Source: a bacterium (GTDB taxonomy: Bacteria; Planctomycetota; UBA1135; GCA-002686595). From it: a stretch of 39,193 nt of DNA. Where the stretch lies: assembly GCA_030426785.1 (NCBI GenBank), contig JAUHXY010000006.1:1-39193 (forward strand), written 5' to 3'. The first letter of the stretch is position 1. The number at the start of each line of letters is the position of its first letter. A program made the position numbers and the translations under genes. The notes beneath the pieces were generated by a model. It did no database searches. It saw only the letters and a program-made list of their open reading frames with translations, and had not been told where the DNA came from. This document shows, in pieces, positions 5,244-20,639 of this stretch.

Positions 5244-6083
5244 TCAAACCGTCAGCCATTCCTGGGCTTTCTCCAGCTCGGCAGCGAGTCCGGCCTGGAT
5301 GGCTTCGATGTCCGCTGCTTCCAGCCCCGTGAGCTCCATCGCGGCGATGCTGACTTCGTGGGGCACCCGCAGCAACCCATCGCGGTCGAGGGGCAACAAG
5401 GTTTCGGCAAGGTGCACCGTACTGGTCAGGAAGGGATCGATCTGCGCATCGCTCGGGCTGTGGTGGTAGCGAATCGTATCCACGATGAAGCTCGGTAACT
5501 TCCACTCACTGGAGAGTCGCGCACCGATCTCCGCGTGATGAATCCCTAGGATGGCACGCTCCGCCTCCAATGGACTGCGACCGCATTCCACTTCCGCGCG
5601 CACCCGGTGGTAGTCCGCCTGGTAGAAGCGATCGAGCACGATTTCGCCGATGTTCTGGAGCAATCCAACCGTGTAGGCCCGGTCCGGACTCTCGTAACCA
5701 TAGCGCGTCGCGATCTCGCGGCTCGCCAAGGCCTGCGTGATGCTGCGCTCCCACAGGGCTTCGCGCACGCCGTCCGGGGAGGAACCCAGGTCCCGGAAGT
5801 AGCGGTTGGCGGTGGAAGTGATGACCAGGTTGACGAGCGCATCCACGCCGAGCATGTTGCCCGCTTCCTGAAGGGAACCGATTTCCCGTTGAAACCCGTA
5901 GTAGGCCGAGTTGCACAGCTTGAGAACCTTGGCGGTAATGCCCGGGTCGGTTTGCACGACCTCGATCACCTCGGCGGGGATGACCCCGGGGCGCCCGGCG
6001 AGGGAGAGTACGGCTGCAGCAACCTTGGGGAAGGGCTCGAGGCTGCGCATATCGAGCACGATGTCTTTGAGCTGGCTAGGCAT
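5244..6083 (-). CDS. HDOD-domain signalling protein
   Basis: 279 residues from the ATG at 6083; the frame is open further upstream to 6260 but that part is not HDOD-like. Residues ~8-210 form an HDOD domain. The hallmark is DPGITAKVLKLCNSAYYGF (~46-64), followed by LQEAGNMLGVDALVNLV. Where true HD phosphohydrolases have a metal-binding His-Asp (GLLHDIG), this protein has GLLQNIGEIVL, so it should not be a hydrolase. HDOD proteins act as protein-interaction or regulatory modules in motility, stress and c-di-GMP contexts. There is no receiver, kinase or GGDEF domain attached. It is monocistronic on the minus strand, ending 44 bp from the convergent tRNA gene. The upstream gap 6084-6305 carries the terminator of the next minus-strand gene. 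Confidence 0.85.
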   Translation of the reverse strand: MPSQLKDIVLDMRSLEPFPKVAAAVLSLAGRPGVIPAEVIEVVQTDPGITAKVLKLCNSAYYGFQREIGSLQEAGNMLGVDALVNLVITSTANRYFRDLGSSPDGVREALWERSITQALASREIATRYGYESPDRAYTVGLLQNIGEIVLDRFYQADYHRVRAEVECGRSPLEAERAILGIHHAEIGARLSSEWKLPSFIVDTIRYHHSPSDAQIDPFLTSTVHLAETLLPLDRDGLLRVPHEVSIAAMELTGLEAADIEAIQAGLAAELEKAQEWLTV

Positions 6084-6244
6084 AGCTGTTCCAACGAGCG
6101 TGGCGCGGTCGTGGGAGGGAATGCAACTGCCTTCGGGTGGCTGGGTCCGAGTTCCTAAAGGAAAACGGATTCCCTGCTGGTCCTTCGACCCCATGCCTCG
6201 ATCCGGAACGCCTCGGCCGAGAAGCACCCTGACGTTCCACTCCC

Positions 6245-6285
6245 AAAACAAAACGCGCACCCCGCTGGTGGGCAGGATGCGCGTT
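6245..6285 (-). terminator. Intrinsic terminator of the b562-like gene
   Basis: Read on the minus strand, an 11-bp stem AACGCGCATCC / GGGTGCGCGTT (one G-U pair) is followed by TTGTTTT. It begins about 20 bases after the stop codon at 6306. Confidence 0.75.
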
Positions 6286-8450: not shown

Positions 8451-9143
8451 CTACGAAGGCTGGTTTTCGGTCGCAGGGCTCGCCATCTGAAGGCGATAGC
8501 CCTGGCCGCGTACGGTTTGGATCAATCCGCTGGACTTGCGATCCACCTTGCGACGCAGGCGACCGATGTGTACATCCAGCAGGTTGGTGCCGGGGTCAAA
8601 GTTCATGTCCCAGACCTGTTCCAGCAACTGGGCACGGCTCAGGACTTCGCCGCGGCCGCGGGTGAGCGCCAGCAACAGATCGAATTCCTTCGGAGAGAGG
8701 TGCAGGGCACGGTCCCCGCGGTAGGCTCGCCGTTGGGCGAGATCGAGGCGCAAATCACCGAAGTGCATCTGCGGCATGGCGGCTCGGCGGCGTAGGACTG
8801 CCTCCATGCGGGCGAACAATTCTCCGTGATCGACCGGCTTGGTGAGGTAGTCGTCGGCGCCCATGCGCAGGCCGCGTACGCGTTTTTCTACCGCCTGCAG
8901 TCCGCTCACGAATAGGACGGGGGTCTCTTCTCCCGCCTCGCGTAGATTGGTCAGCAGGTCCCAGCCGGAGACTCCGGGCAACTCGATGTCCAAGAGGATC
9001 AGGTCGAAGCCGCTCTGCTCTTCGAGCAGGAGGGCAGCTTGTTCCCCGCTAGCCGCCAAATGGCATTGCACGCCATGGGGCTCCAAGCTCATCCGGGTCA
9101 GGTTGGCGAAATCGGTGTCGTCGTCGACGATCAATACCTTCAA
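8451..9143 (-). CDS. OmpR/PhoB-family response regulator, TTG start
   Basis: 230 residues from a TTG codon at 9143 (reads M/L-KVLIVDDDTDF). The only in-frame ATG is at 9317, 58 codons earlier, and would add a tail unlike a receiver domain. Residues 1-115 are a receiver: acidic pocket D7/D8, phospho-acceptor D52 (LILLDIELPG), S80 and K102 (YLTKP). Residues ~128-222 are the winged helix, with SPKEFDLLLAL and the C-terminal hairpin LIQTVRGQGYRL. It should bind DNA as a phosphorylation-dependent dimer. No kinase gene follows it, but a histidine kinase lies across the divergent intergenic region at 12102-13700 and could be its partner. A downstream small membrane gene starts 14 bp after its stop. 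Confidence 0.9.
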   Translation of the reverse strand: MKVLIVDDDTDFANLTRMSLEPHGVQCHLAASGEQAALLLEEQSGFDLILLDIELPGVSGWDLLTNLREAGEETPVLFVSGLQAVEKRVRGLRMGADDYLTKPVDHGELFARMEAVLRRRAAMPQMHFGDLRLDLAQRRAYRGDRALHLSPKEFDLLLALTRGRGEVLSRAQLLEQVWDMNFDPGTNLLDVHIGRLRRKVDRKSSGLIQTVRGQGYRLQMASPATENQPS

Positions 9144-9394
9144 AGCAAATGGGAGGGCTGAGGCGTTCTTGGGGCGAGCGCTGGTTCCCGCCCGCAGGTG
9201 GCCTGCGTTCGGTGGGCGCTGGATCTGAATCCATATGGTACAGATTCGGTCCTCCGCGGTCTCGCCGACCCTGCTATCAGCGAGATTCGGGCCCGGAAAA
9301 CGACGGGCGGGTCCCACCCCCGGTATGCTCCCTTAGGCCCTCTCTCTCCACCGCAACGCTCCCCCGCGGGGCTCGCGATCCTCTCTCTGCCACG

Positions 9395-9739
9395 ATGTCG
9401 TCCTCCCATTCCGATCAAGGTATGCCGTCCGGTCCGGCCGGCGCTGAGCGCTGGAAACAGGTCCAGGATCTGTTGCTCGGCGACCACCAGCGCGAGGTGG
9501 AGCAGCGCTTTCAAGCGACGGGTCAGCAACTCGTGCGGGAGAGCGAGCGCTTGGTGGGCTTGGTCCAGGATTTAGAGTCACGTCACCGCAAGCTCAGCAA
9601 GGCGCTGGAGCGCGAGGTCGAAGAGCGCCAACAATTGGCCGCCGAGGTGGCGCGTCTGCGCAAGTCCCACGTAGCCCGCAAAGACCTCGCCCAACGCTTG
9701 CGCAAGTGGGCCGACAAGCTCAGTCCGGAAGAGGAGTGA
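9395..9739 (+). CDS. Coiled-coil protein, first gene of the GTPase locus
   Basis: 114 residues from the ATG at 9395. After a Ser/Gly-rich start, residues ~18-108 are a continuous, highly charged coiled coil (LVRESERLVGLVQDLESRH; VEERQQLAAEVARLRK). There is no signal peptide or membrane segment, so it is cytoplasmic. Residues ~22-36 (VQDLLLGDHQREVEQ) resemble a short segment near the N-terminus of the next protein (LRALLVSPEEKRLEK). The stop is only 3 bp before the next ATG, so the two are co-transcribed. A TATGCT hexamer at 9324-9329 may be the -10, but no good -35 is seen. The function is unknown. Confidence 0.72.
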   Translation: MSSSHSDQGMPSGPAGAERWKQVQDLLLGDHQREVEQRFQATGQQLVRESERLVGLVQDLESRHRKLSKALEREVEERQQLAAEVARLRKSHVARKDLAQRLRKWADKLSPEEE

Positions 9740-9742
9740 GCC

Positions 9743-11563
9743 ATGAGCGACGCCACCCGAGGGGATTCGGACCTCGATCCGAATCAGGGCGGTACTCAAC
9801 CGCCCGATAGTGCACGGACTCCGTCGTCCCCGAACGACGCGGGTCAGGGGGCGGATGCTAGCGGCAAGGAAGACGCGGATGGCGACGCGAAGTGGGCCGC
9901 CCTGCGAGCCCTGCTGGTCAGTCCGGAGGAAAAGCGCCTCGAAAAGCTCGAGCAGGAGCCCCCCGCCAGCCAACCGCTGGCCAAGTCCTTGCCCGCCGCG
10001 ATCCAAATCGCGGCCGAAGAGGGCGACGAGCTAGCTGGATCCTTGCGTAAGACGATCGAAACAGGATTGCTGCAATCGGCTCGCAACAACCCCGATCAAC
10101 TGGCGGAAGCGATCTACCCCGTGCTCGGTCCGGCCATCAAGCGTTCGATCCGGGCAACGCTGCAGGCCAGTCTGCAGAGTCTCAACGTCGCCCTCGAAAA
10201 CAGTCTTTCCCCCCAAGGTATTCGCTGGCGCATCGAAGCGGCCCGTACGGGCAAACCGTTCAGCGAAGTGGTGCTACTGCACTCCTTGGAGTACCGCGTG
10301 GAGCAGGTCTATTGGATCCACAAGCAGACCGGCCTGCTGTTACAAGACGCTTCAAGCCTCACCGAGAGCCAAAAGGATCCGGAGCTTGTCTCCGGCATGT
10401 TGGCCGCCATTCAAGACTTCGTGCAGGACAGCTTCGAAGGGGCAGAAGAGGGGGCTCTCGAACAGATTGAAGTTTCCGGTTTCCGCGTGTTGTTAGCGCA
10501 GGGCGCGCAGTCGGGGTTGGCCGCGCTCGTGCGCGGCATTCCGCCCGAAAGCCTCGCGGACGAGCTGACCGAAACCTTGGAGACCCTCCAGCGGCGCTAC
10601 GCGGATTCCCTGGATCGCTTCGCCGGCGATGTGGAGCCGTTCGTTCACGCCGAAGAGGAATTGCAGGGATTGCTCGTCGAACAGGTCAAAGAGAAGCGCG
10701 GCAAGAGCCGTCTCGGCTTGTACGCGATCGGCGGCGTCGCCGCCCTGTTGCTCGGTGGGTGGCTGTGGAGCAGCATCGCAACCCACCGGATGGAGTCCCG
10801 TCGCGAACACGCCTTGGCAGCCTTGCAGGCGGAGCCCGGTTACTGGGTCCAAGGGGGAATCGACCAGGATGCTTGGTCCGGGTTGCGCGACCCGCTAGCG
10901 CGTCCGCCCGCGGAGGTGGTCGGAGAGTCCTTCGAAGACCTGGACGTCACCTTCCACTGGAAGCCCGTGCAGTCCCTGGACCCTGAAATCGTGCAACGGC
11001 GCGCGTTGGCTTTATTGAGTCCGCCGGAGGGTGTGCAGCTCGCTTGGCCTGAGCCGGGTGTGTTGGAGCTCAACGGGGAAGCTTCCACGGTATGGATCCG
11101 CCAAGCACGCGGGATCGCGCCCAGCCTGCCCGGTGTGGACGCAGTACGTTGGCAAGGCCTCATCGACCGCGAACGCCAAGAGATCGAACGCAGGGTACAG
11201 AGCTTGGACGGTTTGTATCTGCCCTTTGGACTCGGTTCGAGCGTGCTCGACACCGCACGCCCCGAGGTCATCGGCCGCTTGCAGTCCATGCGTGCCTTGG
11301 ATGGTCGCGTCCTGACCTACGGCGGTGTGGTGCGGGTCGAGCTGCAGTCACTTTTGGGCGTGGACGAACCCTACGACCGAGCGTTGGCCCAACGCCGCCT
11401 CGATGCCGTGCGCCAAGCGTTGACCAGCCAAGGGCTGCAGTGCACGATCGTCCAGGCGCGACCCGTGCCCGACGAAAGCGGCGCGAACGCTTCGCGGCCC
11501 GGGGTGCGGCTCGGAGTACGCGCGATCCTGACCCATCCCACCGAAGACGCGGTCTCCCGGTAG
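9743..11563 (+). CDS. Cytoplasmic sensor-like region + TM + periplasmic OmpA-like domain protein
   Basis: 606 residues. Residues 1-50 are low-complexity and acidic. Residues ~85-175 are helical (VLGPAIKRSIRATLQASLQSL). Residues ~175-300 look like a compact alpha/beta domain, with VLLHSLEYRVEQVYWIHKQT, then SGMLAAIQDFVQDSF and a GDVEPF end; this pattern recalls longin/roadblock-type modules. One transmembrane helix lies at 324-343 (GLYAIGGVAALLLGGWLW). Residues ~415-475 resemble a BON-like repeat (GVLELNGEAS). Residues ~480-600 are OmpA-like (YLPFGLGSSVLD...RVLTYGG...RALAQRRLDAVRQAL), the fold that binds peptidoglycan. So one protein connects the cytoplasm with the cell wall space. It sits directly before the small GTPase gene. 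The topology is visible; the longin-like assignment is inference. Confidence 0.75.
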   Translation: MSDATRGDSDLDPNQGGTQPPDSARTPSSPNDAGQGADASGKEDADGDAKWAALRALLVSPEEKRLEKLEQEPPASQPLAKSLPAAIQIAAEEGDELAGSLRKTIETGLLQSARNNPDQLAEAIYPVLGPAIKRSIRATLQASLQSLNVALENSLSPQGIRWRIEAARTGKPFSEVVLLHSLEYRVEQVYWIHKQTGLLLQDASSLTESQKDPELVSGMLAAIQDFVQDSFEGAEEGALEQIEVSGFRVLLAQGAQSGLAALVRGIPPESLADELTETLETLQRRYADSLDRFAGDVEPFVHAEEELQGLLVEQVKEKRGKSRLGLYAIGGVAALLLGGWLWSSIATHRMESRREHALAALQAEPGYWVQGGIDQDAWSGLRDPLARPPAEVVGESFEDLDVTFHWKPVQSLDPEIVQRRALALLSPPEGVQLAWPEPGVLELNGEASTVWIRQARGIAPSLPGVDAVRWQGLIDRERQEIERRVQSLDGLYLPFGLGSSVLDTARPEVIGRLQSMRALDGRVLTYGGVVRVELQSLLGVDEPYDRALAQRRLDAVRQALTSQGLQCTIVQARPVPDESGANASRPGVRLGVRAILTHPTEDAVSR

Positions 11564-11577
11564 GACAGGCCCCGCGC

Positions 11578-11606
11578 TTGGCAAGGGTGGGGCGGGCGCC
11601 CATAAT
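11578..11606 (+). promoter_or_regulatory. Promoter of the GTPase gene, predicted leaderless
   Basis: -35 TTGGCA (11578-11583, five of six) and -10 CATAAT (11601-11606, five of six) are separated by 17 bp. The ATG at 11614 begins 7 bases after the -10, exactly where transcription should start. No ribosome-binding site fits between them. The GTPase-kinase pair can therefore be transcribed separately from the upstream genes as a leaderless mRNA. Confidence 0.65.
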
Positions 11607-11613
11607 CCCTGCG

Positions 11614-12105
11614 ATGATCCGCAAGAAGATCTGCTTGCTCGGCTCCTTCGCGGTCGGAAAAACCTCGCTGGTGCGGCGCTTCGTGCACTCCGAGTTTTCC
11701 GACCGCTATCAGACGACCGTGGGCGTGAAGGTCGACAAGAAGCTCGTACGGGTCGAGGACCAAGACGTGTCCTTGGTGATCTGGGACCTGCACGGGGAGG
11801 ATCGTTGGCAAACCGTGCGCACGAGTTACTTGCGGGGGGCATCTGGGGCTCTCTTGGTGGCGGATGGAACGCGCCTCGAAACGCTGGAGGTCGTGCGTGG
11901 GCTGTCCCAAACCTTCTTGGACATGAATCCCAAAGCCACCGTTCGGGTGTTGGTCAACAAGCTCGACCTCCTCGAATCGTTTGCGATTCCGCAGGAGGAA
12001 TGGCGCGCTCGCATCGACTGGGCACCGATGGCCTTCACCAGCGCGAAGACCGGGGAAGGGGTCGAAGAAGCCTTTGAAGCGTTGGCGCGAGGAGGAAGCG
12101 CGTGA
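11614..12105 (+). CDS. Ras-like small GTPase
   Basis: 163 residues, a single G domain. G1 is GSFAVGKT (10-17). G2 threonine is in QTTVG (33-37). G3 is WDLHGE (57-62), where the DxxG is D58-G61. G4 is NKLD (115-118). G5 is TSAK (142-145). The order and spacing match the Ras/Rab superfamily and its prokaryotic members (MglA and Rup groups). The residue after the DxxG glycine, the catalytic glutamine of Ras, is glutamate (E62), so intrinsic hydrolysis may be slow or need a partner. There is no C-terminal lipidation cysteine and no membrane segment. It lies 50 bp after the OmpA-like gene and its stop overlaps the kinase start as GTGA. A switch controlling the kinase or the OmpA-like protein is likely, by context. 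Confidence 0.92.
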   Translation: MIRKKICLLGSFAVGKTSLVRRFVHSEFSDRYQTTVGVKVDKKLVRVEDQDVSLVIWDLHGEDRWQTVRTSYLRGASGALLVADGTRLETLEVVRGLSQTFLDMNPKATVRVLVNKLDLLESFAIPQEEWRARIDWAPMAFTSAKTGEGVEEAFEALARGGSA

Positions 12106-13700
12106 GCGACGAGTCGGCGCCCGAAGGGTTCGCGCAGGCGCTCTGGCAAGCGGCCCTGGGCGAAGGGCTCTCCGCTTGGGCGGAGCTCGACGCCGATCAA
12201 CGCGTGGTGCGTTTTGGGGGCGACTGGGGCCATTTCGGGTGGGAGCACCCCCAGGTGGGCCAAGCTGCGATGGATGCGTTGCCGCTCTTGTTGGGGGAGT
12301 TGCCGGCGCGTGGGCCGCTTCAAGGGATGCGGCGCATGCACGCTGTGCAGTGGACGGGCGGGGCCGCCGCGGACTTGACGCTCTTTCCTTTGCCGCAGGG
12401 AACCGGCCTCTTGGCGTACGACGTGAGTGCGCAGGTGGCTCACCAAGGGCGCATGCAGCAGGAGGGCAACCAACTCAGTCTGGTGACGGCGCGCTTGGCG
12501 GGCAAAGGGTTAGGCAGCGCGCTCAACTCGGAAGACGATCTTCTCAGCCTGCTCAAAATGGCCGTCTTCGAGGCCGATGAGGAGGGGCGCTGCCGAGCTT
12601 TGGGCACCCTGGCACCCTGGGCCGAAGCCCTGGTGGAAGAGAATGCGGCGGGAGAACGCACCTTGGTGCGGGGCGACGGGCTCGGTTTTCTCGACAACTT
12701 CCTGGAGGATGCGCTCGAGTTTTGGCGCGCCGGCGCGGCCGGACACCTGACTTCCGGCGTGTGGTGCGAAGGGCAACCCGATGAGGAGGAACGCTGCTAC
12801 GAGGCGTTAGCGGTGCTCGACGAACAAGGGCGCCGCAATCTGGTGCTCGAGCGCGTGGATGCGCGCTTTCAGGAGCGTCAGCGGGTTTTGCAACGGGCTC
12901 GTCAGGCGCACTTAAGCCTGGAAACCCTGGAGGGGGAAGTGCACAAAAAAGAAGTGCTCCTGCAGTGCATCGTGCACGACCTGCGCGGCCCCCTTTCCAA
13001 CATGATGGCCGTCCTGTCTTTGCTCGACGAGCGTGACATGGAGCGGCCCAAAGAAAAGGAACTGCTGGCTTTGGCCCGCCGGCAGGCCGACAAACAAGAC
13101 CGTATGATGCGCGAACTGCTCGATATCTTTGCGGCCGAGGTGCGCGCGCTGCAGAGTTTCGAAGCGCACGCCGCGAGCGCTCCGGACTTGGGCGCCGCGG
13201 TGGAGTACCAAGTGCAACACATGGGGCCTGCCTTTGAAGAAAAGGGGGTGCGCCTGAGCGCGCGCGTGGAGCCAGGCCCCTGGCCCGTGGTCGCGGACGC
13301 CGATCGATTGGACCGCGTCCTGCGCAATCTCGTGGGCAACGCCCTGCACCACGCTCCGGCGGGCAGCGAGGTGGAACTTTGGCTGCACCGCACCCGCCGA
13401 AAACCCGAAGTGGCTCCTGGAGGGTCCCGGCAGTCGTCCAGCAGCGCTCCATCCGATGCAACCGCCGAGGAATGGGCGGAACTCAGCGTGCTCGACCGCG
13501 GGCCGGGGGTCGCACCCGACAAAGCGACACAGATCTTCGATCGCTTCGTGCAGAGCGGGCTGGCTACGTCGGGAGGGACCGTCGGCCTGGGGCTCTACTT
13601 CTGCCGCAACGCGGTGCAAACCTGGGGAGGGCGCTGCGGCTATCGGGATCGAGAGGGCGGGGGAGCCGACTTCTGGATCCAGTTGCGACCGGCGCGTTAA
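12102..13700 (+). CDS. Soluble PAS-type sensor histidine kinase
   Basis: 532 residues from a GTG that overlaps the GTPase stop (GTGA), so the two are translationally coupled. Residues ~15-115 look PAS-like. Residues ~170-255 may be a second sensory domain (FLDNFLEDALEFWRAG). A coiled-coil linker follows (~255-285). The H box is CIVHDLRGPL with H292 as phospho-acceptor. The catalytic domain has the N box RNLVGNALHHA (N413), the G1 box DRGPGV (~465), the F box IFDRF and the G2 box GLGLYFCR. There is no transmembrane segment, so it must sense a cytoplasmic input; the GTPase and the OmpA-like membrane protein next to it are obvious candidates. A Ser/Gly-rich insert lies between the N and G1 boxes (~430-455). 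No receiver is attached; the nearest response regulator is at 8451-9143. Confidence 0.93.
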   Translation: MSDESAPEGFAQALWQAALGEGLSAWAELDADQRVVRFGGDWGHFGWEHPQVGQAAMDALPLLLGELPARGPLQGMRRMHAVQWTGGAAADLTLFPLPQGTGLLAYDVSAQVAHQGRMQQEGNQLSLVTARLAGKGLGSALNSEDDLLSLLKMAVFEADEEGRCRALGTLAPWAEALVEENAAGERTLVRGDGLGFLDNFLEDALEFWRAGAAGHLTSGVWCEGQPDEEERCYEALAVLDEQGRRNLVLERVDARFQERQRVLQRARQAHLSLETLEGEVHKKEVLLQCIVHDLRGPLSNMMAVLSLLDERDMERPKEKELLALARRQADKQDRMMRELLDIFAAEVRALQSFEAHAASAPDLGAAVEYQVQHMGPAFEEKGVRLSARVEPGPWPVVADADRLDRVLRNLVGNALHHAPAGSEVELWLHRTRRKPEVAPGGSRQSSSSAPSDATAEEWAELSVLDRGPGVAPDKATQIFDRFVQSGLATSGGTVGLGLYFCRNAVQTWGGRCGYRDREGGGADFWIQLRPAR

Positions 13701-13778: not shown

Positions 13779-14732
13779 ATGCACGCGATCGCCCCCCGCA
13801 AGATCACCGTCGTCGGCGCCGGCTACGTGGGTAGCACCTGCGCCCATTTGGCCGCCCAGAAAAACCTCGCCCGCGAAGTCGTCCTGATCGACATCCTCGA
13901 AGGCCGCCCCCAAGGGATCGCCCTCGACCTCAACCAGTCGGCCGCCGTAGAGGGCTTTCTGACCCGGGTGGTGGGCACCAACGATTACACCGCCACCCAC
14001 GACTCGGATGTGGTCATCATGACCGCTGGCCTGCCCCGCAAGCCGGGCATGAGCCGCTCGGACCTGCTGGAAACCAACGGCAAAATCGTGCGCCAGGTGG
14101 CCGACGAGATCCGGCGCGGTTCCCCGCAAGCGATCGTGATCGTCGTGACCAACCCGCTCGACTCAATGGTCACCCTGATGCAATACCACACCGGTTTCCC
14201 GGCCCGCCGGGTGATCGGCATGGCGGGGGTGCTGGATGCGGCGCGCTTTGCCTTTTTCCTGGCCGAAGCCACGGGCACCTCGCCCGCGGACGTCGACGCC
14301 ATGGTGCTGGGCGCCCACGGGGACTCCATGGTGCCTATGCCGCGCCACTGCTCGATCAACGGGGTGGCGGCCCAAGACTTGCTCAGCGCCGACCAGCTCG
14401 ACGAGATGGCGCACCGCACGCGCCATGGGGGCGCCGAGATCGTGAAACTGCTCAAGACTGGCAGCGCTTGGTACGCGCCGGCTAGCGCCTCGGTTGCCAT
14501 GGCGGAAGCGATGCTCAATGACTCGCGCCGCATGATGCCCTGCGCCTGCCGCTTGAATGGCGAGTTCGGTTTTGAAGGGCTGTACATGGGCGTGCCGGCC
14601 ATCCTCGGCTCCGGCGGGGTCGAACGCATCGTCGAACTTTCGCTGACCGCCGAAGCCCGCGCCCTGATGCAAAAGACGGCGGGCGCGGTCGAAGCGGATA
14701 CTTCCACGATGCGTGACTTGGGCTTGATGTAG
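13779..14732 (+). CDS. mdh: Malate dehydrogenase (LDH-like type)
   Basis: 317 residues. The NAD-binding motif is VVGAGYVGST (11-20). The substrate-specificity segment is AGLPRKPGMSRSDLL with R87 and R93, and this pattern separates malate from lactate dehydrogenases. N125 lies in VTNPLD. R156 binds the substrate carboxylate. The catalytic proton acceptor is H180 in LGAHGDSMVP. It oxidises L-malate to oxaloacetate with NAD+ in the citric acid cycle, reversibly. A TAAGCT hexamer (13766-13771) lies 7 bases before the ATG, which would also fit a leaderless start, but its -35 is poor. fumC follows after 54 bp, so fumarate-to-oxaloacetate steps are encoded side by side. Confidence 0.95.
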   Translation: MHAIAPRKITVVGAGYVGSTCAHLAAQKNLAREVVLIDILEGRPQGIALDLNQSAAVEGFLTRVVGTNDYTATHDSDVVIMTAGLPRKPGMSRSDLLETNGKIVRQVADEIRRGSPQAIVIVVTNPLDSMVTLMQYHTGFPARRVIGMAGVLDAARFAFFLAEATGTSPADVDAMVLGAHGDSMVPMPRHCSINGVAAQDLLSADQLDEMAHRTRHGGAEIVKLLKTGSAWYAPASASVAMAEAMLNDSRRMMPCACRLNGEFGFEGLYMGVPAILGSGGVERIVELSLTAEARALMQKTAGAVEADTSTMRDLGLM

Positions 14733-14786
14733 AGCTCGTCCTTTCCGCGCCTTCTTCTCCTACTCACTTCCTACGCGTTCGAACTC

Positions 14787-16190
14787 ATGTCCACGCGCAC
14801 CGAAAACGACTCCATGGGGCCCATCGAGGTCCAAAACGACGTCCTGTGGGGCGCGCAAACCCAGCGCAGCCTGCAAAACTTCAAGATCGGCGGCCAGCGC
14901 TTCACGCGCCCCATGATTCGAGCTTTGGGGGTGGTCAAAAAGTGCGCCGCCCTGGCGAATCGCGAACTGGGCGAGTTTGCCGGGCTCGAGGCCCAAGACG
15001 TGGACGCGCTGCTGCAGGCCGCCGACGAGGTCATCGCCGGCGAGCACGATGCCATGTTCCCCTTGGTCGTATGGCAAACCGGTTCGGGCACGCAGTCGAA
15101 CATGAACACCAACGAGGTGATCTCGAACCGCGCCATCCAGTTGCGCGGAGGGCAAATGGGCAGCAAAGAGCCCATTCACCCCAACGATCACGTCAACCGG
15201 GCGCAGTCCTCGAATGACACCTTCCCGACCGCGATGCACATTGCGGCGGCCGAGGAAATCACGCAGCGCATGCTGCCAGCCCTGCAAAACCTGGCCAACG
15301 CATTGCAGGAAAAGGCGGATGCATGGAAAGACGTGGTCAAGATCGGTCGCACGCACTTGCAGGATGCTACGCCCCTGACCGTGGGCCAGGAATTCTCGGG
15401 CTACGTGCACCAATTGAAGGACGCCTGTCGCGCCCTCTCGAACACTTTGCCGGGACTCTACGAGTTGGCCCTCGGGGGCACCGCGGTTGGTACGGGCCTC
15501 AACACTCACCCCGACTACGCCGCAAAGGTCGCCCACCACATCGCCGAAGAGACCGGCCTGCCTTTCGTGACCGCGCCCAACAAGTTCGCGGTCCTGGCGG
15601 CCCACGACGCGATCGTCTTCGCCCACGGGGCCCTCAAGACCGCGGCCGTGGCGCTTATGAAGATCGCCAACGACCTGCGTTGGCTCGGTAGCGGCCCGCG
15701 CTGCGGCTTCGGCGAATTGCAATTGCCCGCCAACGAGCCGGGCTCGTCGATCATGCCGGGCAAGGTCAACCCGACCCAATGCGAGGCCCTCACCATGGTC
15801 TGTGCTCAAGTGATGGGCAACGACGTGGCGGTGACCGTAGCGGGCAGCCAGGGCAACTTTGAGCTCAACGTCTACAAGCCGGTCATGATCCACAACCTGC
15901 TCGAGTCGGTGCGCCTCTTGAGCGACGGTTGCGACTCTCTGCGCACCAAGTGCGTGGACGGTCTAGAACTCAACGAGCAGCGCGTGGACAGCCTGATGAA
16001 GCAGTCGTTGATGCTCGTGACGGCCCTCAACCGTCACATCGGCTACGACAACGCCGCCAAAGTGGCCAAAAAGGCCTTCCAAGACGGCACCACCCTGCGC
16101 GAAGCCATCGTCGAACTCGGATTCATGAGCGGCGAGGAGTTCGATGCCGCCGTGATCCCTCGCGACATGGTGGGCCCGCGCAAGGCCTAG
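14787..16190 (+). CDS. fumC: Class II fumarate hydratase
   Basis: 467 residues, the usual length for FumC. The superfamily signature [16 protein letters not shown] begins at residue ~319. Other family blocks are [34 protein letters not shown] and [20 protein letters not shown]. The enzyme is an iron-free homotetramer that interconverts fumarate and L-malate. It follows mdh by 54 bp in the same direction. The start at 14787 gives the expected N-terminus ([15 protein letters not shown]). The 211-bp gap after it (16191-16401) contains GC-rich stems such as CCCCGCA/TGCGGGG (16230-16250) without a U-tract, and the promoter of the next gene. Confidence 0.97.
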
Positions 16191-16296
16191 GTAGCAGCCC
16201 CGAAACCGTTCTTAAGGCCCTTCCATGGGCCCCGCATCGGGTCTGCGGGGGCAAGACAGGGGACTTCCCAGGGGCGGGCAGCCCCCAAGGTGCCCC

Positions 16297-16325
16297 TAGA
16301 CAGCCCCTGGGGGCCCGGCTAGACT
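16297..16325 (+). promoter_or_regulatory. Promoter of the bL34-like gene
   Basis: -35 TAGACA (16297-16302, five of six) and -10 TAGACT (16320-16325) are spaced by 17 bp. Transcription would start near 16332, giving a leader of about 70 bases that contains the Shine-Dalgarno AGGAGGTG at 16390-16397. Confidence 0.6.
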
Positions 16326-16401
16326 TTGCGCCCCCGATTCCCGGGAAGACCCGCTCACCGTCGAGGCTCCCTCGATCGGACCCCCAACCAGGAGGTGCCC
16401 C

Positions 16402-16527
16402 ATGAAGCTCAAGATCCGTAACAGCAAAGCCAAGAAAGGCAAAAAGACCGGTTTCCGTACGCGTCAAAAAACCGCCGGAGGCCGCAAAGTCAACAAGCGC
16501 CAGCGCGCGCGTCACGGCTCCTTCTAG
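16402..16527 (+). CDS. rpmH: bL34-like small ribosomal protein
   Basis: 41 residues, with 17 Lys or Arg: it begins MKLKIRNSKAKKGKKTG and continues FRTRQKTAGGRKVNKRQRAR before HGSF. The central part aligns with the bL34 signature ([22 protein letters not shown] in E. coli): GFR.R..T..GR.V...R.A+. The usual KRTFQPS start is replaced by KLKIRNS. A strong Shine-Dalgarno (AGGAGGTG) lies 4 bases before the ATG, unusual in this window and fitting a highly expressed gene. bL34 is normally encoded beside rnpA and dnaA; here it sits between fumC and dcd. Its TAG stop is the first triplet of the large fold-back at 16525-16711, which carries its terminator. If not bL34, it is another small rRNA-binding protein. 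Confidence 0.62.
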   Translation: MKLKIRNSKAKKGKKTGFRTRQKTAGGRKVNKRQRARHGSF

Positions 16528-16573
16528 CGCTCCGCCAGCGGGAGCTGAGTTCACCGCAGCGCGTCCGTAAGAC

Positions 16574-16602
16574 GCCCTAACGAAAGTTCGGGCTCTCTTT
16601 TT
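16574..16602 (+). terminator. Intrinsic terminator of the bL34-like gene, in the left arm
   Basis: Stem GCCCTAAC / GTTCGGGC (one T-C mismatch) with a GAAA tetraloop (16582-16585), followed by TCTCTTTTT. It begins about 47 bases after the stop. Confidence 0.7.
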
Positions 16603-16634
16603 GTGCTCGACGTGGCCAGAGGCCACGCCTGCGC

Positions 16635-16663
16635 AAAAAGAGGGCCCGAACTTGCGTTAGGGC
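16635..16663 (-). terminator. Inverted copy of the terminator, minus strand
   Basis: Read on the minus strand: GCCCTAAC, GCAA tetraloop, GTTCGGGC, then CCTCTTTTT. It is the right-arm counterpart of the plus-strand terminator and would stop transcripts coming from the dcd side. The loop differs (GCAA instead of GAAA), but both are GNRA loops. Confidence 0.6.
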
Positions 16664-16711
16664 GCCTTACGGCCTGCGCTGCGGCAAACTCAGCTCCCGC
16701 TGGCTCCGCTA

Positions 16712-17060
16712 TGGCAGGACGGGGCGCGGCGCGGCGCGGCGCTTCGCGCGCGCAGTGGGGCAGTGAGGGGGTTGCGCGGTGGGAGGGTTGCCGGATAGAT
16801 CGGGGAGAAGTGAGCTCTTTCGGCGCCCGCGAGTGGATTCGATGTGCGAAACACGGTGAGGCCAGGAACCTCTCTGAAGGCTTTCCAGAGCGAAGGATCG
16901 GTGACGAAAGGTTTCCTCCAGGGCCGGGGACCAGGCGTTCACCTGACCCGAATGATGGCTTCACTCGGGCATCTGGCAGCTCGGTTTTTCCGTGCACCCA
17001 GGTGGCGCGAACCAGTGGCTCAGTGGTTGTCGGTGCCTCGCCGTTCGCTCTCAAACCGCG
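16712..17060. other. Non-coding stretch between the two fold-backs
   Basis: I see no credible gene. Open frames here have no protein-like pattern. The stretch contains a GCGCGGC tandem (about 16724-16740) and several local stems: CTCTG/CAGAG near 16871-16890, and CCCGA/TCGGG around 16947-16970. It may be the body of a structured RNA or simply debris between two repeats. Confidence 0.4.
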
Positions 17061-17227
17061 CCCTAGCGCGATGCTTTCGGTCTGGTGGAGCTGGGTGGCG
17101 CGTCAGTGCGTGCCGTCTCGGCACGCCGCGCGCAGGCGTGGCGCAAGCCACGTTGAGCACGAGCGTCCGAGGCGGCACGCGCTGGCGCGTCAGCCGGCCC
17201 CGCCAGAGCGGAAGCAGCGCGCTAGGG
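17061..17227. repeat. Fold-back containing an inverted copy of the dcd 3' end
   Basis: Left arm 17061-17121 and right arm 17167-17227 align without gaps over 61 bp, with 11 mismatches. The right arm includes the last 38 bp of the dCTP deaminase gene with its TGA; the left arm is an inverted copy of it, with TGA changed to TGG. The apex 17130-17160, read on the minus strand, is GTGCTCAACGTGGC, loop TTGC, GCCACGCCTGCGC, nearly identical to the apex of the 16525-16711 fold-back. Confidence 0.85.
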
Positions 17228-18338
17228 TTAGGTCTTGGTGGCGGTAGGACTTGCTTTTTCGATTTTCGCCGTAGAGGGAGGTGGGGCGGCCGTTGGTGCG
17301 GAAGAAGCGTAGGCGGAAGAAGATTTGGCCGTCCTCGACCAAGAAGGGGACGTCGTGGGCGCGGACCTCGAGGACGGCGGGGGTGCCGTGGCCGGTGGGT
17401 TGGCCGTTGGCGTCTTCTTGCCAACCGAAGCCGTTATCGAAGAAGCCGGCGTAGTTGTTGCGCAGTTCGCCGATGCCTACGTCGACGGGCAGCATTTCGG
17501 CAGCGAGGTGCGGGGGGATGCGGATGCGTTCGGAGCTGGCGAAGATGTAGAAGTGTTCGGGGTGCAGAATGCAGCGGCCTTCGGGGGCGTGTACGGGGTC
17601 CCAGAAGGGGGTCGGGTCGTGGTGGTTTTCGGACTGGAAATGTAGGAGGGGGGCGTTGGGGCGGGCGCACCAGCCAGCGGGGTCGCGGCCTTCCAGGCCG
17701 ACGCGCAGCAAGAGGTCGCCCTGATCACCGAAGAGAACTTCGTCTTCGCGTAGGGGGCGGTCGCCTCGGAAGGCGAGGGGCGTCTCGCGGTAGATGGCGC
17801 GCAGGGCTCCGGTGCTGATGGCGGGGTCGCCCTTTTGCAGGCGGACTTGGCAGAGGCGATCGCCGCGGCGCAGCTGGACCGAAAAAGAGAGGGGACAGAC
17901 CTCGAGGTAGAGGGGGCCGCGGTAGCCAGGGGGTGCCTCGTCGAAGCGTGGGTGGCGATTGACGAGCACGCGGGTGAACAGGTCGCAGCGGCCCGCGGAG
18001 CTGCGGGGGTTGAAGCGGGCGGAGACGTCGCTGGGGAGGGCGAGGCGTTCCTCCAGCTCGACCAAGTAGACGCGGCCGCGTTCGAGGCGGGCTCCATCCC
18101 CGCTGAGGTCGATTTCGCCGTCCGCCAGGTTTTCGAGCCGGGTGTGCACGGCCTCGCCGCCGGGCAAAAAGCCAGCGCGCATGGCCCAGGCACGCCGGCC
18201 TAGGCGCAGATCCACGCTGGCGGGTTGCACTTGGGCGTTTTGGAGGGGCAGGCCATCCGTTCCGGGCAGTAGCACGAGCTCCAGGAGCGGTGTGAGTTCG
18301 CGATCGGTCAGGATGTGGCCGTGAGGGGTGGGCGCCAT
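17190..18338 (-). CDS. dcd: 2'-deoxycytidine 5'-triphosphate deaminase, two-module form
   Basis: 382 residues from the ATG at 18338 ([15 protein letters not shown]); an upstream in-frame ATG at 18383 is less likely. The protein has two related modules. Module one (~1-175) has the PASVDLRLG strand and the catalytic segment [13 protein letters not shown] (109-121), where the R-S-S-x-G-R motif holds the triphosphate. [10 protein letters not shown] and GDRLCQVRL follow. Module two (~195-382) repeats the fold ([39 protein letters not shown]). Classical Dcd is a ~190-residue trimer; this long form occurs in alphaproteobacteria and planctomycetes. It makes dUTP from dCTP for thymidylate synthesis. 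The ending [14 protein letters not shown] fits the family. The last codons lie in a fold-back repeat. It is divergent from sucC. Confidence 0.88.
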
Positions 18339-18569
18339 GGCGGCAGATCCTACGGTCCGGGCCTGGGGCGAGCCACGGGGCATCCGCCGGCGATCCCCAG
18401 GCCATGCGATGAAAGGCCGGACCGGATCTTGGGCGAGGGCGCAAAGGGGAGGCCTCGGCCTGTATTCCCGGAGGCCTCACGGCTATGCTCTTCGGCTCAT
18501 TCTGCGCCGCAGGGGGTGCTTCGAACCACGGTTCCGAGGCCCGGCCGGCGAGACCGATCCCCAAATCCC

Positions 18570-19736
<1,167 letters not shown>

Positions 19737-19739
19737 GCC

Positions 19740-20639
19740 ATGAGTATTTTCGTCGACAAGAACACCAAGCTCATCTGCCAGGGTTTCACCGGCAAGACGG
19801 GTACCTTCCACTCCCAGCAAGCCATCGAGTACGGCACGAACATGGTGGGGGGCGTCAATCCCAAGAAGGCCGGCAGCGAGCACTTGGGCTTGCCCGTTTT
19901 CGGTGACTGCACCGAAGCCCGCAAAGCCACCGGCGCGAACGCATCGGTCGTGTACGTGCCGCCGCCCTTCGCCGCCGATGCGATCATCGAAGCGATCGAG
20001 GCGGAAATCGAATTGGTCGTGACGATCACCGAAGGCATTCCGGTGCTCGACATGGTGCGCGTCGTCGACGCTCTGAAGGGGTCCAAGACCCGTTTGATCG
20101 GTCCGAACTGCCCCGGCGTGATCACGCCCGGCGAGTGCAAGATCGGCATCATGCCCGGCTACATCCACAAGCCCGGCCGCGTCGGCGTCATCAGCCGCTC
20201 GGGCACCTTGACCTACGAAGCGGTCTGGCAGCTCACGACCCGCGGGATCGGCCAGTCCACCTGCGTGGGCATCGGCGGCGACCCGGTCAACGGCACCAAC
20301 TTCGTGGACGTCTTGACGGCCATGAACAACGACCCGGAAACCGACGCGATTATTATGATCGGCGAGATTGGTGGCACGGCGGAAGAAGCTGCGGCCGACT
20401 ACATCGCCGCCAACGTGAAGAAGCCCATGGTGGGCTTCATCGCGGGCCAAACCGCGCCTCCGGGCAAGCGCATGGGCCACGCTGGCGCGATCATCGCGGG
20501 CGGCAAAGGCACCGCCGCCGACAAGGTCGCTGCGATGGAAAAGGCCGGCGTGCTGATGAGCAAGAGCCCCGCGCGGCTGGGCGAGATGATGGAAAAGCGC
20601 TTGGAGGAAAGCGGGCTCTTGTCCGCCGCCAAAGCCTAA
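19740..20639 (+). CDS. sucD: Succinate-CoA ligase, alpha subunit
   Basis: 299 residues, the usual length is ~290. The N-terminal CoA-binding Rossmann domain has [19 protein letters not shown] (~16-34). The phosphorylated active-site histidine is H247 in [23 protein letters not shown] and [12 protein letters not shown] are further family blocks. It forms the catalytic pair with SucC and carries the phosphohistidine intermediate. A good Shine-Dalgarno (AAGGAG) lies inside the last codons of sucC, so translation is coupled. The operon ends at a strong terminator 20 bases downstream. Confidence 0.97.

Follow-up and report, generated by a model that had tools for sequence, protein, structure and literature searches.

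A planctomycete Group 1 Rup locus as a candidate signalling operon from a trans-envelope protein through a Rab-like GTPase to a soluble histidine kinase

A 39,193-nt stretch of DNA from a member of the Planctomycetota (UBA1135; GCA-002686595), contig JAUHXY010000006.1 of assembly GCA_030426785.1, is referred to below as the window. By its sequence features, a four-gene locus in this window is a member of the published Group 1 Rup systems. We put a probability of about 0.55 on the reading that it is a signalling operon, in which an envelope protein would act on a small GTPase, the GTPase on a histidine kinase, and the kinase on an OmpR-type response regulator. Group 1 Rup GTPases were defined by their gene neighbourhood (Wuichet and Søgaard-Andersen, 2015; PMC4316618). 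Four proteins are encoded in this neighbourhood: one with a coiled coil, one whose unknown domain often precedes a transmembrane segment and OmpA, the GTPase itself, in which G3 has no glutamine, and a c-di-GMP enzyme or histidine kinase as the output protein. New here are a candidate fold for the unknown domain, predicted by modelling to be longin/roadblock, and a pattern of gene loss that ties this domain to the GTPase. The original prediction for the locus was borne out in its conserved module and in its suspicion of similar sets in cyanobacteria and Chloroflexi; it fared badly on wall sensing, on the absence of a roadblock-type partner and on novelty.

The four genes (Table 1) lie in tight order at positions 9395-13700, exactly as initially described, with gaps of 3 bp between the coiled-coil and 606-aa protein genes and of 50 bp between the latter and the GTPase gene, and with a GTGA overlap of the GTPase and kinase genes at 12102-12105. 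The divergent regulator gene upstream probably has its true start near position 9143. On the 3' side the operon is followed by mdh, fumC, a dCTP deaminase gene on the opposite strand, sucC, and sucD (13779-20639); synteny of mdh-fumC with the operon is retained in several relatives. Further upstream, the minus strand encodes an HDOD protein (5244-6260) and, at the window edge, a protein with DUF4388 and TPR (3-2163). A promoter-like site, TTGGCA-17-CATAAT, was noticed at 11578-11606 within the 50-bp gap 5' of the GTPase gene; as a match to the consensus only, it could provide separate expression of the GTPase. The family motif of the coiled-coil protein is LDKIRDILFGxQxR. Profile comparison of this N-terminal motif with the N-terminus of the OmpA-like protein gave a probability of 47% (P 1.9e-4), which is only suggestive of a shared motif.

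Table 1. Features of the locus and of two reduced loci in relatives. Positions refer to the window unless another locus is named.
Feature	Position	Strand	Basis or remark
OmpR-type response regulator, divergent, upstream	8451..9317 (ORF as listed)	-	Pfam/NCBIfam, synteny
Coiled-coil cytoplasmic protein, 114 aa	9395..9739	+	ORF; N-terminal motif WKQVQDLLLGD
606-aa trans-envelope protein (Group 1 Rup "unknown domain + TM + OmpA" type)	9743..11563	+	homology
Predicted longin/roadblock-fold domain, residues 182-308 of the 606-aa protein	10286..10666	+	AlphaFold2, Foldseek, correlated loss
Single transmembrane helix, residues 324-345 of the 606-aa protein	10712..10777	+	hydrophobicity
Periplasmic part, degenerate OmpA-like domain at its end	10778..11560	+	Pfam matches of the family, alignment
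Rup/Rab-like small GTPase, 163 aa	11614..12105	+	G motifs, Pfam Ras
Soluble histidine kinase, 532 aa	12102..13700	+	HisKA + HATPase_c
Kinase module D1, residues 14-130, ending in invariant Gln120	12141..12491	+	alignment; PAS-like by inspection only
Kinase module D2, residues 152-283, ending in invariant Gln264, Arg267 and Leu271	12555..12950	+	alignment
Predicted phosphoacceptor His292, H-box HDLRGPL	12975..12977	+	HisKA alignment
Shortened OmpA-like locus, then mdh-fumC	L028:6337-8199 (G001 C551)		coordinated clean loss
GTPase-less coiled-coil/OmpA-like second copy	L030:6764-8590 (G023 C37)		central domain deleted; paralogue

A search of species genomes with an alignment of the OmpA-like protein yielded 327 relatives, from which 80 loci were kept. 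They came from Planctomycetota, Acidobacteriota, Nitrospirota, Desulfobacterota, Zeta- and Gammaproteobacteria, Rhodothermales, Gemmatimonadota, Cyanobacteria, and others. The GTPase gene was present in 77 of them, co-directional in 73 and divergent in 4, with a 4-bp overlap in 30; in the three remaining loci the OmpA-like gene sits at a contig end. Among 88 loci with space for such a gene, 83 had a candidate coiled-coil gene 5' of the OmpA-like gene. Since the same order recurs across many phyla, the four-gene arrangement is far beyond chance. To avoid a one-sided search, the GTPase was also sought alone, independently, in 294 Planctomycetota genomes. It was found in 15 and the full OmpA-like protein in 16, both together in 15 (Fisher p 2.8e-24); one genome (G189) had the longin-type protein, and no GTPase was found in it. 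All GTPase-bearing genomes also having the OmpA-like protein, the system is sparse in the phylum (about 5%) and retained as a unit. The window genome encodes a single such GTPase, with no second Ras-like GTPase detected at E 1e-5. The conserved module of membrane protein, GTPase and kinase that had been proposed is thus strongly supported by the recurring neighbourhood and by this co-occurrence. The Rup phyla listed in the 2015 survey do not include Planctomycetota; they include both cyanobacteria and Chloroflexi, in agreement with the similar sets suspected in these two phyla (PMC4316618).

As had been claimed, the GTPase gene encodes an entire G domain (Pfam Ras 4.6e-30), and the closest PDB structures are Rabs, including a Thorarchaeota Rab. 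The motifs were G1 GSFAVGKT, G3 WDLHGED, G4 NKLD, and G5 TSAK, so that Glu occupies the position of Ras Gln61. Glutamine was found there in none of 83 GTPases; 76 have Glu or Asp, and the other seven Ala, Met, Thr, Lys or Arg, for which reason hydrolysis may not be general. G1, the Asp and Gly of G3, G4, and G5 are intact and conserved among the relatives. The placement as Rup is based on motif, PDB matches and neighbourhood: G3 is of the Rup/Ras type (WDxxG, with Asp kept). Membership in the MglA family was rejected, since G3 is not MglA-type and no mglB gene is adjacent. No natural fusions of the GTPase to neighbouring genes were found by genome search; long open frames flagged as possible fusions were chance extensions in GC-rich DNA.

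The central cytoplasmic domain of the 606-aa protein is predicted to have a longin/roadblock fold. For the cytoplasmic region of the window protein, the AlphaFold2 model had a mean pLDDT of 67, with a confident sheet and flanking helices and a central helix at only about 55; longins stood at the top of its Foldseek matches. The same region of a Nostoc homologue, modelled from 73 sequences, reached pLDDT 86.5 and pTM 0.78. It forms a five-strand sheet in the order beta-beta-alpha-beta-beta-beta-alpha-alpha, which in this model is the longin order. Foldseek matched it with TRAPP subunits, Mon1-Ccz1 bound to Ypt7, AP sigma, MglB, the MglA-MglB complex, and Ragulator, the best matches having a probability of 1.00 and E from 1.7e-5. 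TRAPP, Mon1-Ccz1, MglB and Ragulator are platforms for small GTPases, and Mon1-Ccz1 is the GEF of Ypt7. Longin and roadblock are related, circularly permuted folds with similar modes of binding to small GTPases (PMC3521125; PMC10933270). At the sequence level, a profile search of the domain against the PDB and a comparison with Pfam families gave no match, and no kinship with established longin or roadblock families was detectable. The operon has no MglB/roadblock gene, and the only Robl_LC7 match of the window genome (G000) lies outside the window, at C32:987-1250. An implied lack of any roadblock-type partner is nevertheless not supported, a domain of this kind being predicted within the membrane protein.

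Losses in relatives follow the same domain. In a genome of the same genus (G001), mdh comes right after the coiled-coil and OmpA-like genes, without GTPase or kinase, and what the OmpA-like protein is missing is exactly the stretch from its N-terminal helices to the transmembrane helix, i.e., the longin-type domain. A paralogous pair without GTPase and kinase, its OmpA-like protein missing the same domain, occurs in G023, a genome that has a full system as well. Exceptions to this pattern are a third relative (G017, locus L029), which has kept a diverged copy without the GTPase, and G189. Orthologs of the OmpR-type regulator at 54-59% stand beside the operon in G003, G004, G016, and G034; G001 has no ortholog (best match 39%). 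From this distribution the regulator is likely the partner of the kinase.

The 606-aa protein shows full-length homology to its family and has one modest transmembrane candidate (Kyte-Doolittle 1.67). The layout first proposed for it, a cytoplasmic region, one membrane helix and an OmpA-like end, stands as regards the helix; the OmpA assignment stands for the family, 43 of 53 homologues matching PF00691 (OmpA), and is undetectable in the window protein alone, which gave no Pfam match (E 0.1), no NCBIfam match and no PDB match. Domains of the OmpA type contact peptidoglycan through a conserved Asp and Arg. In the window protein Arg552 is kept, and the Asp of TD and the Asn of NxxLS are lost; most of the family keeps both. 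Because the same two residues are lost in all seven aligned planctomycete relatives, the suggested passage of a wall signal through the membrane protein is not supported, and wall sensing by the planctomycete protein appears doubtful. Some OmpA-like proteins are longer, 750-920 aa (L101, L106, L107, and L127 (G251)). In G251 a periplasmic segment about 65 residues long gives multiple matches to the model, resembling a tandem repeat, and such repeats perhaps span a wider periplasm.

The kinase has HisKA and HATPase_c domains and, as stated originally, no membrane segments: no hydrophobic transmembrane stretch was found (Kyte-Doolittle maximum 1.0). Its N-terminal part consists of two modules, D1 and D2. 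Gln120 of D1 was invariant in 34 of 34 sequences, and Gln264, Arg267, and Leu271 of D2 each in 59 of 59. Of 74 loci with room, 66 have D1 and/or D2 beside the GTPase, irrespective of output type, and the other 8 have no D1/D2 protein there. Behind the modules we found kinases, hybrid kinases, sigma-54 activators (Nitrospirota, Acidobacteriota), and an HD_5 protein; the kinase of G034 has no D1. In Nostoc and some Nitrospirota D1 is a separate small protein: at L087:6181-6579 and similar Nostoc loci a free-standing D1 of about 130 aa comes right after the GTPase, and better covered Nostoc loci (e.g., L079) have free D1 and then a separate D2-kinase. The HD_5 protein (HD-GYP-like) is the D1-D2 output of a Chromatiaceae locus, in place of a kinase (L074:10340-11827). 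In the G004 kinase (L023:3508-5628), D1 and D2 are separated by about 200 extra residues, and the scanned part of this insertion gave no Pfam match. Homology of D1 and D2 to each other was rejected (profile comparison probability 0.7%), despite the invariant Gln at the same place in both.

The feeding of the kinase by the GTPase has already been published as a hypothesis, and an invariant N-terminal Gln of the output protein was proposed there to act in trans on Rup (PMC4316618). The output protein beside the window GTPase has such residues, and the Gln of that paper may be Gln120 or Gln264; their invariance is consistent with an input from GTPase to kinase. As a hypothesis, Gln120, Gln264 and Arg267 would extend the idea of a glutamine in trans by an invariant Arg. 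The invariant Gln and Arg could equally be structural.

The contacts, the direction of flow, catalysis in trans and the nature of the stimulus are what we infer in the following scheme. The 606-aa protein would hold the Rab-like GTPase at the inner membrane by means of its cytoplasmic longin/roadblock platform, with the coiled-coil protein as a possible accessory of its N-terminal part. Depending on the condition of the envelope, the platform would set the nucleotide state of the GTPase, in a GEF- or GAP-like manner. The loaded GTPase would bind the N-terminal modules of the kinase where the linker helices start, and Gln120/Gln264 (and Arg267) may complete its active site, coupling output to GTP hydrolysis. 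The kinase would then phosphorylate the divergently encoded regulator. Points against this scheme are the weaker model of the window protein's own domain and its missing profile matches, the GTPase-less copies in G189 and L029, the 8 loci with no D1/D2 neighbour, the G034 kinase with its missing D1, and the GTPases with neither Glu nor Asp at the Gln61 position.

The flow could also run in reverse, the kinase or its N-terminal modules regulating and the GTPase being the output, which acts on the envelope protein, for example by positioning or remodelling an envelope complex. Such a direction was proposed for actinobacterial conservons, which combine a kinase with an MglA-type GTPase and have no response regulator. 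The invariant Gln of the kinase modules would fit a GAP-like role, and the coiled coil, the OmpA-like protein and the GTPase are the most constant components, whereas outputs vary and are absent in the 8 loci mentioned. Against it, an OmpR-type regulator stands beside the operon and is lost together with the kinase, which indicates that a normal phosphorelay output exists; in addition, kinase, hybrid kinase, sigma-54, and HD-type outputs exchange behind the same modules, which looks like one input. We regard reverse flow as unlikely.

Very improbable, in our estimate, is a GTPase that binds nucleotide without cycling and serves as a structural bridge between membrane protein and kinase. The missing G3 Gln (83 of 83), with Ala, Met, Thr, Arg or Lys in seven sequences, would suit such an adaptor, but the remaining motifs are intact and conserved, Glu/Asp at the Gln61 position is itself conserved (76 of 83), and Gln may come in trans, as the 2015 paper argues (PMC4316618). 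Still less probable is a module for envelope structure, with the OmpA-like protein and the coiled coil as a tether, the GTPase setting localisation, and the kinase merely co-transcribed and under no control of the GTPase. The coiled coil and a short OmpA-like protein do survive as a pair lacking GTPase and kinase, in G001 and in the G023 paralogue, and the promoter-like site falls within the gap 5' of the GTPase; however, 66 of 74 loci from various phyla have a neighbouring kinase or other D1/D2 output, and the invariant residues of D1/D2 do not depend on the type of output.

Beyond the signalling operon preferred here, we tentatively propose, at slightly under even odds, that Rup GTPases use a dedicated longin-fold regulator built into a trans-envelope protein, and that this Rab-longin pairing occurs in many bacterial phyla, with two-component, c-di-GMP, and sigma-54 outputs donating the missing catalytic Gln. 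If true, the Rab-longin partnership exists outside archaea and eukaryotes. Group 1 Rup GTPases are the bacterial GTPases closest to the eukaryotic Rab/Ras/Rho/Ran group; should the partner domain be a longin/roadblock platform, switch and regulator would both be in hand, and the loading of a bacterial Rab-like switch and a pre-eukaryotic age of the Rab-longin pair would become testable with few soluble constructs. A general route by which an envelope protein drives a soluble kinase or a transcription activator is also suggested.

Regarding known systems, the two-component design, originally described as unusual, is not novel, since Group 1 Rup is in print and a histidine kinase likewise accompanies a small GTPase in conservons. 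The actinobacterial conservons (CvnA-D) and the window have both genes in one operon. Unlike the window, conservons have an MglA-family GTPase, a separate MglB-type roadblock protein and a membrane-bound kinase, and they have no OmpA-like protein and no response regulator. Membership in the conservons was rejected: the operon has no roadblock gene, and the kinase ends in GGGADFWIQLRPAR, without LPxR. MglA/MglB of Myxococcus and Thermus share with the window a bacterial small GTPase, and the Foldseek matches of the central domain include MglB; they differ in the G3 region, in MglB being a free soluble dimer with the roadblock order, and in an operon without a kinase. TRAPP, Mon1-Ccz1, and Ragulator resemble the central domain in predicted fold, helix/strand order, and Rab-like partner. 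In contrast to these eukaryotic regulators, the central domain belongs to an envelope protein with one TM and has no homology to them detectable in sequence.

As of 2015, no Group 1 Rup GTPase had been experimentally characterised according to the original survey (PMC4316618), and no follow-up studies since then were found in the open literature, most subscription papers being outside the scope of this search. With the Group 1 Rup systems described there, the window shares the four genes including the coiled coil, the domain layout of its membrane protein (domain, TM and OmpA), the type of G3 and its missing Gln, a kinase-type output with N-terminal Gln, and the absence of an adjacent MglB gene. 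It differs from that listing in its planctomycete host and in the eroded contact residues of OmpA. To the 2015 account, within the sections consulted, the present analysis adds the predicted fold, two Gln-bearing modules, sigma-54 outputs, and a linked response regulator.
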